IMG/VR virus record: IMGVR_UViG_3300031951_011359
Coordinates: 1 to 64,000 of that record
DNA: 64,000 bases
From: a virus
Strand: one strand, 5' to 3'
Below, one piece after another: positions 12,465 to 51,553 of the stretch; position 1 is the stretch's first letter, and every line of letters begins with the position of its first letter. A program made the translations under genes and the position numbers. The notes under the pieces were generated by a model. The model made no database searches and was not told where the DNA came from. It saw only the letters and a program-made list of their open reading frames with translations.

Positions 12465-12492
12465 AAGTTACTGCGACTTATCAGTATTTATC
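12463..12492 (-). promoter_or_regulatory. Late promoter overlapping a start-codon hairpin (HNH gene)
   Basis: GATAAATA (12485-12492) is followed by the inverted repeat ATAAGT / ACTTAT with a 7-nt loop. The right arm contains the first two bases of the HNH ATG. A T4-type late start point 6 nt after the box would fall inside the left arm, so late transcripts could not form the hairpin while read-through transcripts could. Confidence 0.5.
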
Positions 12493-15118: not shown

Positions 15119-15126
15119 TATTTATA
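15119..15126 (-). promoter_or_regulatory. Perfect T4-type late promoter TATAAATA (endonuclease gene)
   Basis: An exact TATAAATA lies 27 nt before the endonuclease ATG and 2 nt after a TATTAT box. TATGGTAT upstream of the box can pair with ATACCATA directly before the ATG, but only in transcripts that start upstream of the late promoter. Confidence 0.75.
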
Positions 15127-16287: not shown

Positions 16288-16367
16288 ATAAGAGTTCGGG
16301 GGGACGAACTGATTCTAGTATACCCCCACAGCACCCTCCACTGTGGGTATGAGAGACGTGATTTATA
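16288..16367 (-). promoter_or_regulatory. psbA 5' leader with two hairpins and a late-type box
   Basis: On the minus strand TATAAATC (16360-16367) resembles the T4 late box. The leader then holds CCCACAG / CTGTGGG and, 21 nt before the ATG, AGTTCG / CGAACT with a C-rich 6-nt loop. Leader RNAs called PhotoRC-I and PhotoRC-II are known before psbA in cyanobacteria and cyanophages; whether this matches one needs a covariance search. Confidence 0.45.
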
Positions 16368-16402
16368 CTCCCCATAGGTCTCGGTTGATGGGAGTTGACA
16401 AT

Positions 16403-16447
16403 GTTACAAGAAGTTTGCATTCCGTAACATTTGTTTACCTATTTATC
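16403..16447 (-). promoter_or_regulatory. Distal psbA control region: GATAAATA box and HLR1-like direct repeat
   Basis: GATAAATA (16440-16447) resembles a late promoter. GTTACAAG-AA-GTTTGCAT (plus strand, 16403-16420) has the 8+2+8 layout of the cyanobacterial HLR1 element bound by RpaB, but only the first half is a good match. Confidence 0.3.
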
Positions 16448-38859: not shown

Positions 38860-38976
38860 TGTGCTCAGGCTCGCCACCAATTCTTTGACTGGAAATTGGA
38901 AACCAGGCGGGAGAGAGTCCCATCCGCACCAACGTCATTTTAGAGATGCCGTAAACTCAAATAGGGTCATATTTGA
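38860..38976 (-). ncRNA. Candidate structured leader RNA before the polysaccharide operon
   Basis: On the minus strand this gene-free stretch holds three hairpins: TCAAATA / TATTTGA with a 6-nt loop; GGGA / TCCC; and CGCC plus CCAATT paired with AATTGG plus GGCG. It runs straight into the terminator/promoter element and the operon. The layout resembles an aptamer-plus-terminator riboswitch. The known wcaG RNA motif precedes exopolysaccharide genes in cyanophages, but identity is not established. Confidence 0.35.
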
Positions 38977-39798: not shown

Positions 39799-39873
39799 CG
39801 GAGTATTCGGATTTGAACCGAAATTATTCCTGCTCCCAAAGCAGGTGCCATGACCAAGTTAGGCGATACTCCG
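39799..39873 (-). tRNA. tRNA-Pro (TGG anticodon)
   Basis: The minus strand folds into a cloverleaf: acceptor CGGAGTA / TACTCCG, D-stem GCC / GGC, anticodon arm CCTGC-TTTGGGA-GCAGG with anticodon TGG, T-arm TTCGG / CCGAA. No CCA is encoded. The first 15 nt are also the last codons and stop of an upstream HNH gene. Confidence 0.95.
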
Positions 39874-40215
39874 TAGTTCCAACTCACCAGAATGAACTGC
39901 TGCGTGGCAACAAGCACATAATAGCACACATCCCTTTATTTCGTCAAGAATGCGTTCGTGACTCCATCCACGAATCCCATGAAATTTAGCATCTTTTTGA
40001 GAAGGGTCTAAGTGATGAACTTGAAGTGCTGATGAATATTTATCATATCCACAAGAAACACATTTACCTCCCATTTCTTCTATAATAAAACTTCTTTTTT
40101 TCTGCCCCAACTCTAATCTATATTTGTTATGGCAGGCACCACATACTGATTTTTTATGTCCATAAAATTTAGATGGGTCGGTTTCTCCACAATGCCCACA
40201 TTTATGCGTTCTCAT
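39859..40215 (-). CDS. HNH endonuclease overlapping tRNA-Pro
   Basis: A 118-residue protein with two CxxC zinc pairs (CGHCG, CGACH) and a second module GGKCVSCGYDKYSSALQVHH followed by LDPSQK and CVLLCACCHAAVH. HHLDP is the catalytic His core. The same GGKCxxCGYxKxxSALxxHHLDP module occurs in the HNH gene at 46.2 kb, so the two are paralogues. Its last five codons and TAA lie within the tRNA-Pro gene. This suggests insertion beside a tRNA, as for other mobile endonuclease genes. Confidence 0.85.
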   Translation of the reverse strand: MRTHKCGHCGETDPSKFYGHKKSVCGACHNKYRLELGQKKRSFIIEEMGGKCVSCGYDKYSSALQVHHLDPSQKDAKFHGIRGWSHERILDEIKGCVLLCACCHAAVHSGELELRSIA

Positions 40216-40218
40216 TTT

Positions 40219-40249
40219 GGTAGAATAAGTTTATCTACCATTATTTATG
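40219..40249 (-). promoter_or_regulatory. Late promoter overlapping a start-region hairpin (HNH gene)
   Basis: CATAAATA (40242-40249) is followed at 2 nt by the inverted repeat GGTAGA / TCTACC, whose right arm ends 3 nt before the HNH ATG. A late start 6 nt after the box falls within the left arm, so late RNA should lack the hairpin. Confidence 0.5.
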
Positions 40250-46167: not shown

Positions 46168-46240
46168 CTGGGGCGGCAGGGATCGAACCTGCGACCTAGA
46201 TGTTAACAGCATCCCGCTACTACCGCTGAGCTACACCCCA
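46168..46240 (-). tRNA. tRNA-Asn (GTT anticodon)
   Basis: Acceptor TGGGGTG / CGCCCCA, anticodon arm GATG-CTGTTAA-CATC (GTT), T-arm GCAGG-TTCGATC-CCTGC. Its first 10 nt contain the stop codon of an upstream HNH gene. Confidence 0.92.
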
Positions 46241-46533
46241 TTATGTTGTTCGTGATGTATTTCTCTATGGCAATTAGCACACACAAGAATACATTTATCT
46301 GCTTCTGCTTTTTGTTTTTCTATGGCAGCGGTGGTTCCAAGATTTTTTGTTTCTTTGGTAGTGGGATCAAGATGATGAAACTCTAATGCAGAAATGCATT
46401 TATTGTAACCACATCTTTCACACTTACCACCTTTATATTCTACTAGAAGAAGTTTGTTTTGCTTGCGTCTTTTAATGACACTTGCTTTATTTGCTTCTCT
46501 ACGATCAGCATAGGTTCTGGTTTCCTTAGTCAT
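46231..46533 (-). CDS. HNH endonuclease overlapping tRNA-Asn
   Basis: A 100-residue protein with a basic N-terminus and the module GGKCERCGYNKCISALEFHH, then LDPTTK and CILVCANCHREIHH. The HNH core HHLDP and paired CxxC match the enzyme next to tRNA-Pro. Its TAG stop is formed by bases 8-10 of tRNA-Asn. It splits the tRNA array, the mark of an endonuclease inserted at a tRNA locus. Confidence 0.88.
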   Translation of the reverse strand: MTKETRTYADRREANKASVIKRRKQNKLLLVEYKGGKCERCGYNKCISALEFHHLDPTTKETKNLGTTAAIEKQKAEADKCILVCANCHREIHHEQHNGV

Positions 46534-46568
46534 AAGGTAGAAGTTTTATTGTTCTACCATTATTTATA
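46534..46568 (-). promoter_or_regulatory. Late promoter overlapping a start-region hairpin (HNH gene)
   Basis: A perfect TATAAATA (46561-46568) is followed at 2 nt by GGTAGAA / TTCTACC, a 7-bp inverted repeat with a 9-nt loop ending 2 nt before the ATG. The predicted late start (46555) lies in the left arm and would destroy the hairpin, as in the T4 I-TevI control scheme. Confidence 0.65.
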
Positions 46569-46581
46569 AGGGAATAAATGT

Positions 46582-46657
46582 GCCGTTGTGGGGGAATCGA
46601 ACCCCTACTTCTCCAACTCCCTTGTCGGGGTGTCCTGACCACTAGACTACCAACGGC
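46582..46657 (-). tRNA. Degenerate tRNA-like element (Asp/Glu-type D-arm)
   Basis: 76 nt with acceptor GCCGTTG / CAACGGC, D-arm GTCTAGTGGTCAGGAC as in Glu/Asp tRNAs, and T-loop TTCGATT. The middle cannot form a normal 5-bp anticodon stem with a 7-nt loop and lacks U33, and the T-stem is one base too long. Probably a decayed tRNA. Confidence 0.45.
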
Positions 46658-46665
46658 TTGATGGA

Positions 46666-46815: not shown

Positions 46816-46902
46816 AAGAGACCTCCTGGTTTGTGCATCGTTGAGAGGCATAGGAGGGGCGGGACTTATAGGAGGGTTGGAACCTCGCCTGCCCATGAGA
46901 AT

Positions 46903-50883: not shown

Positions 50884-51468
50884 TTAACTCTTACTATATA
50901 TTCTCCCCAATACCCATTCACATCCAGGAGTTTCATTATTAGCAAAAAGTTTTTCAACTTCACCATTATTCCACCACTTTCTACCAGTCATATAATTTTT
51001 TCTTTTATCTTTAAATTCTTGGGAACGAGTTGCCCCTTTTTTATTTTGTGGTAGTTTTTCTATATGCTCTTTTGATTTTTTCTTACCAGATAAAGCATTA
51101 CTTATATTTTCTCTATGGGACTTTGGAGCAATTTTACCATAGAAAGGATGATTTACACCACTCATTTTTAAACTTTGAATTTCTTTCTGTTCTTCACTTA
51201 CAATCCTACCAGAAGTTCCTTCACCTCCATCGGTAAGATTTCTTAAAATACCAGTCCCATTATCTTTTCTACCATAAACATCAATCATATAAACTTCGTG
51301 TTTGATTGCTTCTTGTTCTGTTAGGTTTCTTTTTAGATATATTATTCTATCTCTACTTGGTAAAGGCACAATTCTTTTTTTAACATACATTCTAAACCCC
51401 TTACCTTTACCGATGTAATAAGGAGTTCTATCCTCACGCAAATATGCGTAGGTGTAATAGTTATTCAT
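50884..51468 (-). CDS. GIY-YIG homing-type endonuclease
   Basis: A 194-residue protein. NNYYTYAYLREDRTPYYIGK and GKGFRMYV form a GIY-YIG nuclease domain (Tyr pair, IGKGKG, a later Arg), followed by NLTEQEAIKHEVYMIDVYG with the catalytic Glu. The C-terminal part (HPFYGKIAPKSHRENISNAL, SGKKKSKEHIEK, MTGRKWWNNGE) is a NUMOD-type DNA-binding array. It is a paralogue of the gene beside nrdB. Start control by a long inverted repeat is described separately. Confidence 0.9.
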   Translation of the reverse strand: MNNYYTYAYLREDRTPYYIGKGKGFRMYVKKRIVPLPSRDRIIYLKRNLTEQEAIKHEVYMIDVYGRKDNGTGILRNLTDGGEGTSGRIVSEEQKEIQSLKMSGVNHPFYGKIAPKSHRENISNALSGKKKSKEHIEKLPQNKKGATRSQEFKDKRKNYMTGRKWWNNGEVEKLFANNETPGCEWVLGRIYSKS

Positions 51469-51471
51469 ACT

Positions 51472-51553
51472 GCTTTATGTGTGGTAATACTATTTATACA
51501 AGAAAAGAGGCATTTCTGCCTCCAATCTTTTGCTTAGGTTACCACACATAAGC
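51472..51553 (-). promoter_or_regulatory. Late promoter inside a 15-bp inverted repeat (GIY-YIG gene)
   Basis: GCTTATGTGTGGTAA (51539-51553) and its partner TTACCACACATAAAGC (51472-51487, one bulge) enclose a GAGGCA / TGCCTC terminator hairpin with a T run and a perfect TATAAATA (51491-51498). The right arm ends 3 nt before the ATG. The predicted late start is inside the right arm, so only read-through RNA carries both arms. Confidence 0.65.

Follow-up and report, generated by a model that had tools for sequence, protein, structure and literature searches.

To our knowledge, the regulation of free-standing endonucleases outside T4 and Aeh1 has been little studied. Late-promoter/hairpin control has been described for T4 I-TevI, I-TevII, I-TevIII and segB and for mobE of Aeh1 (PMC2988022), and the same kind of control applies to the T4 lysozyme gene e (PMC3014915). 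In the T4 and Aeh1 endonuclease genes, as is predicted for those described here, long transcripts form a hairpin that masks the ribosome-binding site, initiation at a late promoter takes place within the left arm or past it, and GIY-YIG and HNH homing endonucleases are again the enzymes concerned (PMC2988022, PMC3014915).

The window, which is the whole 64-kb stretch of DNA analyzed here, forms part of a 96.5-kb IMG/VR virus record, and the presence of psbA and tRNA genes, together with close matches to Synechococcus phages, indicates that it derives from a T4-like cyanophage. A first-pass annotation of the window had proposed that five endonuclease genes on the minus strand (at 12.1, 14.7, 39.9, 46.2 and 50.9 kb) share a T4-type late box and an inverted repeat at the start codon, and it had rightly pointed to I-TevI as a precedent, the same control mechanism being already known from the T4 and Aeh1 endonucleases (PMC2988022). 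The late box is indeed present at all five genes (5/5), and its distance to the ATG is nearly fixed in relatives, TAAATA being kept in 18/18 (46.2 kb), 21/21 (39.9 kb), 32/32 (14.7 kb) and 41/41 (12.1 kb) unique homologues; at 50.9 kb, the box is present in 44 of 49 protein-selected relatives. Since the boxes stay with the gene in relatives, often amid different upstream sequence, the endonuclease genes appear to carry their own putative late promoters, whose activity and start points are predicted here by analogy with the T4 late-promoter rule. Both TATAAATA (7/7 copies) and NATAAATA (18/18 copies) lie exclusively on the minus, coding strand of the window. Three copies of TATAAATA precede the endonuclease genes at 14.7, 46.2 and 50.9 kb, three precede genes whose homologues sit at late boxes in S-SRM01, and one precedes a gene with an S-SRM01 homologue that bears the annotation of a Dps-type DNA protection protein. 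The minus strand also contains Rfam matches to PhotoRC-II (16312-16406), wcaG (38863-38960) and abiF (46821-46857). Within the window alone, inverted repeats are not enriched at endonuclease genes over other late-box genes (Fisher p 0.4-0.8), so that it is the relatives that give the repeats their significance. Comparison with relatives divided the five proposed repeats, those at 46.2, 39.9 and 50.9 kb being kept and those at 14.7 and 12.1 kb not being conserved. On this comparative evidence, the idea that a late box with a start-site hairpin recurs at free-standing endonucleases from different families is well supported.

The simple form of this arrangement is found at two HNH genes (the box, repeat and ORF coordinates given for the window here and below refer to the minus strand). 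At 46.2 kb, where the positions of box, ATG and ORF end had been correctly assigned, the late box TATAAATA (46561..46568), kept in 18/18 unique homologues, is followed by the hairpin GGTAGAA-CAATAAAAC-TTCTACC (46536..46558) and by an HNH endonuclease ORF of 100 aa (46231..46533, Pfam HNH) with its ATG at 46533. The right arm ends 2 nt from the ATG, and the predicted late start (~46555) falls inside the left arm. At 39.9 kb, the late box CATAAATA (40242..40249) and the hairpin TGGTAGA-loop-TCTACCA (40218..40240) lie 5' of the ATG at 40215 of an HNH-type ORF of 118 aa (39859..40215; CxxC..HHLDP..CxxCH), which was assigned by its sequence resemblance to the 46.2-kb gene and has no Pfam match. The two proteins have GGKCxxCGYxKxxSALxxHHLDP in common and the two leaders ATAAATA-n-GGTAGA-loop-TCTACC-n-ATG; these genes, which had been counted as separate cases, are homologues belonging to one HNH family. 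The layout of box, GGTAGA..TCTACC hairpin and ATG is kept in 18/18 (46.2 kb) and 21/21 (39.9 kb) unique homologues. Divergent homologues of the 46.2-kb gene near tRNA-Asn carry, at the corresponding position, a 13-bp hairpin of other sequence in S-H38 (arms ATCTTTGGTATAA/TTATACCAAAGAT) and an 8-bp one in S-WAM2, and this retention of the layout with unrelated arm sequences supports selection on the pairing itself. The predicted exposure of the start region is 0.45 on read-through RNA versus 0.75 on late RNA for the 46.2-kb homologues, and 0.42 versus 0.56 for the 39.9-kb homologues, but the difference vanishes for the window's own two genes when a longer folding context is used.

An open pattern search of viral contigs also located GGTAGA hairpins near ATAAATA elsewhere; among the matches with a good downstream ORF, the hairpin lies 1-4 nt from the ATG only at these HNH genes. 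In five other phage loci (L366, L370, L377, L321 and L402), a late box and a GGTAGA..TCTACC hairpin stand 5' of structural genes, the hairpin lying some 20 nt short of the ATG and being followed, in some, by a T-run; since the predicted late start there lies in or near the left arm, the late RNA would escape the hairpin. In two loci (L024 and L030), the late box of the 46.2-type HNH gene is immediately preceded by an additional hairpin, of GGTAGAA or GGCAGAA type, which looks like a duplication.

Both HNH genes run into a tRNA gene. The 46.2-kb ORF ends within tRNA-Asn(GTT) (46231-46240), with an overlap of exactly 10 nt in 27/27 homologues and a stop codon made of tRNA bases, and the 39.9-kb ORF ends within tRNA-Pro(TGG) (39859-39873), usually by 15 nt, the tRNA being present in 37/37 homologues. 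S-SRM01 (184027-184781, compared with 46241-46660 of the window) provides a natural empty site, in which ...CTTACTCCATC is joined almost directly to tRNA-Asn and the 46.2-kb HNH cassette is missing, as is a tRNA-like sequence (about 46653-46580 of the window) that escapes ARAGORN. This empty site in S-SRM01, for the 46.2-kb gene, is the one feature bearing on homing that was found.

The repeats at 14.7 and 12.1 kb were rejected as functional hairpins, since relatives do not keep the arms, and at these two genes they very probably reflect chance complementarity in A/T-rich leaders, with neither conservation nor compensatory change in relatives. The endonuclease VII-type gene at 14.7 kb, a candidate F-CphI-like endonuclease, lies downstream of psbA, with a psbA-like C-terminus just upstream and an Endonuclease_7 domain. 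Its late box (15119..15126) is flanked by a 9-bp repeat (15139-15131 / 15100-15092), which argues against chance in the window (p of about 0.02 versus shuffles) and reaches at least 7 bp in only 5/32 relatives. The left arm falls within TATGnTATAAT, a look-alike of a sigma-70 extended -10 element, in which the G changes to C or T in relatives without compensation. Also against chance, other endonuclease VII-type genes in S-SRM01 have hairpins of 17 and 11 bp around the late box. At the 12.1-kb HNH gene (late box 12485..12492), the repeat (12481-12476 / 12468-12463) is A/T-rich and 6 bp long, attains at least 7 bp in only 14/41 relatives and is lost in one clade; the predicted late start removes only the outer two of the six pairs and leaves four. 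At the Seg-like gene at 56.7 kb, for which a weaker version had been suggested, a CTAAATA box is present but there is no repeat.

The elaborate form precedes the 50.9-kb gene, a GIY-YIG/NUMOD3 endonuclease ORF of 194 aa (50884..51468; YAYLRED..PYYIGKG motif, weak NUMOD3). The earlier description of a late box and an inverted repeat had missed an upstream late box, a local hairpin and a terminator, so that the layout now reads, from 5' to 3': an upstream late-type box CTAAATA, termed P1 (51559..51565); a local hairpin H1, GCTTA..TAAGC (51532..51553), which contains the long-range left arm TTATGTGTGGTAA (51551-51539); an intrinsic terminator H2, GGAGGCAGAAATGCCTC followed by TTTTCTT (about 51507..51523); the late box TATAAATA, termed P2 (51491..51498), with a predicted start at ~51485; and the right arm TTACCACACATAA (51475..51487), a perfect 13-bp complement of the left arm. 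H2 has the G+C stem followed by a T run that characterizes an intrinsic terminator, and covariation was seen at 5/5 of its predicted stem pairs. The series [AC]TAAATA, 5 nt, H1, terminator, TATAAATA, right arm and ATG is fixed in relatives of the GIY-YIG gene, the proteins behind related cassettes match NUMOD3 and GIY-YIG models, and the cassette matches no Rfam family.

In 4.2 Mb of fetched sequence we counted 156 unique cassette copies versus 3 in the reversed control; as this sample was fetched partly via the cassette itself, the protein-selected count is the less biased one. Arms are present in 39 of the 49 protein-selected relatives (at least 9 Watson-Crick pairs in 37 of them and, in the other two, 8 pairs with a visible bulge), and P1 in 38 of those 39, including the two bulged cases. 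Because a plain MAFFT alignment misaligns the arms, RNAalifold recovered only the terminator stem, and the arms were therefore tested by swapping: across 81 different arm pairs, true pairs form 11.6 bp on average versus 5.3 bp when arms are swapped between cassettes. The downstream ORFs fall into 12 clusters, nearly all endonucleases or NUMOD-type relatives, comprising four GIY-YIG-like clusters, two HNH-like clusters and single ones that include PD-(D/E)XK-like and NUMOD-type proteins, several of these assignments being based on weak Pfam scores or motifs. One arm core appears with up to three ORF clusters, the same arm occurs with different endonuclease families, and N-termini that are 97% identical appear with different arms, which indicates that cassette and enzyme are exchanged separately. 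The shared regulatory cassette that had been envisaged thus has a stronger case in the 50.9-type leader than was proposed, since this leader precedes GIY-YIG, HNH and PD-(D/E)XK-like genes. The predicted unpaired fraction of the start region rises in 76/76 cassettes, from 0.26 on read-through RNA to 0.65 on late RNA.

Among named phages, a nucleotide search found the cassette in S-SRM01 only (complete genome, 240,842 bp); inspection guided by protein matches brought in B23 and S-B68, as well as Sf-CH5 with a single-hairpin form, and the cassette was absent by the same inspection from S-N03, RN05-S and ACG-2014f. In S-SRM01, seven cassettes (18021, 48503, 51314, 56026, 62477, 77630 and 192486) with seven different arms precede seven endonuclease genes. 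Repeats of at least 10 bp accompany 8/18 endonuclease genes with a late box, under labels that we assigned from homology and annotation, versus 1/54 other late-box genes (Fisher p=2.8e-5), an association of repeats with endonucleases. On the other side, two non-endonuclease late-box genes (at 61.5 kb in the window and at 124262 in S-SRM01) have 10-bp A/T-rich repeats. An endonuclease VII-type gene of S-SRM01 (126142-126200) has a perfect repeat of at least 17 bp, whose loop holds the late box and whose right arm contains the ATG, and the simpler layout also occurs at endonuclease genes at 142277 (11 bp) and 162214 (10 bp). The proposed recurrence at endonucleases of different families holds in relatives and in S-SRM01, but draws no support from the window's own 14.7- and 12.1-kb genes. 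The hairpin is not obligatory, as roughly one in two late-box endonuclease genes of S-SRM01 is without a strong repeat. Five of the cassettes (48503, 51314, 56026, 62477 and 77630) are followed by genes with TATAAT-type, sigma-70-like promoters, which makes it unlikely that the late boxes were borrowed from those neighbors; box 1 as the native promoter of the next gene is likewise not favored, as five of the seven next genes have a sigma-70-like promoter of their own. Elsewhere in S-SRM01 (207378-209040), the psbA annotation is split in two by a gene for a site-specific DNA endonuclease, probably reflecting a psbA intron, and a homing endonuclease gene lies downstream of the split psbA.

The reading that we favor, and consider probable, is that the endonuclease genes carry their own cassettes, in a simple and an elaborate form, which keep them silent on read-through RNA and open them late. 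In the simple form (39.9 and 46.2 kb), the hairpin would cover the ribosome-binding region, and a late promoter starting within the left arm would yield an mRNA that escapes it. In the elaborate form (50.9 kb), the terminator H2 would halt most read-through RNA, any RNA that escapes would fold the left arm onto the start region, and P2 transcripts, beginning at the right arm, would give a free late mRNA. With an efficient terminator, this long-range pairing would seldom be of consequence in cis. Folding predicts the block to translation on read-through RNA clearly for the 50.9 type and moderately for the 46.2-kb homologues and weakly for those of the 39.9-kb gene. In these models, the exposure shift of the 50.9 type corresponds to the I-TevI principle (PMC2988022), for which the upstream half would not be needed. 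P1, hairpin and terminator would in addition yield a short RNA able to pair with the 5' end of the late mRNA, a possible extra brake.

The strongest competing account of the 50.9-type cassette, and one that is compatible with a switch in cis, makes more of this short RNA and takes the upstream half to be a small-RNA gene, composed of P1, a 5' hairpin with the antisense sequence in its loop and stem, and a terminator. The 50-63-nt RNA would act in trans, pairing with the initial 11-14 nt of the P2-made endonuclease mRNA, and would limit how much endonuclease is made, including across co-infecting phages that share an allele. We give this account somewhat less than an even chance. It would explain why P1 persists in 38/39 protein-selected cassettes and has the same 5-nt spacing to a predicted purine start as P2, and why H1, which presents an antisense region with 9-15 bp of complementarity to the target, is kept although it competes with the long-range helix. 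The predicted RNA-mRNA duplexes are also selective, with a median of -20.6 kcal/mol for cognate versus -10.2 kcal/mol for mixed pairs, and when the seven S-SRM01 cassettes are combined with one another, each RNA and each mRNA is predicted to bind its cognate partner most strongly. A variant form (S-SRM01 77630, Sf-CH5 and L148), in which the antisense lies in the loop of a single hairpin, points in this direction too. On the other hand, P1 is a weaker box than P2 (CTAAATA in 28/81), H1 stems exceed swapped ones modestly (6.2 versus 5.1 bp), the single-hairpin variant of Sf-CH5 is without P1, and seven different arms in one genome are what chance would give with this many alleles. The fuller version, that of a portable antisense regulator with its own late promoter and terminator, existing in dozens of selective versions of a 50-63-nt RNA, passed between unrelated endonuclease families and allowing separate control of several endonucleases in one phage and recognition of the same allele in co-infecting phages, is put forward a little more tentatively still.

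Two further explanations fare worse than the cis switch. That the repeats are mainly terminators or mRNA-end stabilizers of upstream genes, their overlap with endonuclease starts being incidental, could account for the terminator-like stem in the cassette and for the ATAAATA and GGTAGA hairpins, some with a T-run, at structural genes with a more distant ATG; we regard it as improbable, given that hairpins within 1-4 nt of the ATG are confined to the HNH genes, that the covarying arms of the 50.9 type are distinct from the terminator and reach close to the ATG, and that repeats are enriched at endonucleases. Slightly less probable again is that the endonuclease binds the repeats as DNA operators or homing-site mimics, a reading that fits the arms flanking the late box and the transcriptional autorepression of I-TevI at its own late promoter (PMC2988022) but is not favored, because the arms do not track the proteins (a single arm core is shared by several endonuclease families, and N-termini that are nearly identical come with unlike arms) and both arms change together as complements, as RNA pairing predicts.

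To conclude, control of these endonucleases travels as a module separable from the enzyme, and the strong natural covariation makes its structure credible ahead of experiment; the named phage S-SRM01 has seven copies. If the short RNA is real, selfish genes would here possess a family of antisense regulators, which would also offer a natural supply of mutually selective RNA pairs. C4 antisense RNA is likewise encoded upstream of its target, on the same strand. The C4 RNA of phages P1 and P7 is a short structured RNA whose loops pair with the ribosome-binding region of the target and nearby upstream sequence (PMC5320573), and the predicted upstream RNA of the 50.9 type similarly has loop sequence complementary to the ribosome-binding region of its target. 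The Rfam C4 model gave no match at the 50.9-kb leader (E<=10), nor at gathering score in the window, L636 or L521, and the two differ in design: C4 is processed from a longer transcript by RNase P and has two antisense loops, whereas the 50.9 type comes with a late-type box and a terminator of its own and has one antisense region. CfrI of cyanophage S-PM2 is likewise an antisense RNA beside a free-standing homing endonuclease, F-CphI (PMC12197685, PMC5931967), but it lies between psbA and F-CphI with a proposed role at psbA, while the 50.9-kb element shares the strand of its gene and is complementary to the leader of that very endonuclease. The two-promoter, terminator-bearing cassette was not found in the open-access papers searched, most subscription journals lying outside this scope. 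The simple form is a further case of a trick already known from T4 I-TevI, segB and Aeh1 mobE. T4 SegB is also a homing endonuclease in a tRNA region with a predicted late promoter and leader RNA structure (PMC2988022, PMC3014915); in the two HNH families described here, by contrast, each gene overlaps one specific tRNA gene (Asn or Pro), and the length of the overlap is nearly fixed. Compared with the T4 and Aeh1 arrangement, the 50.9 type has three additional parts, namely a late-type box further upstream, a local hairpin that competes with the long-range pairing and a terminator within the loop, and it differs from that arrangement in being one recurring module, with many complementary alleles, across many endonuclease families.
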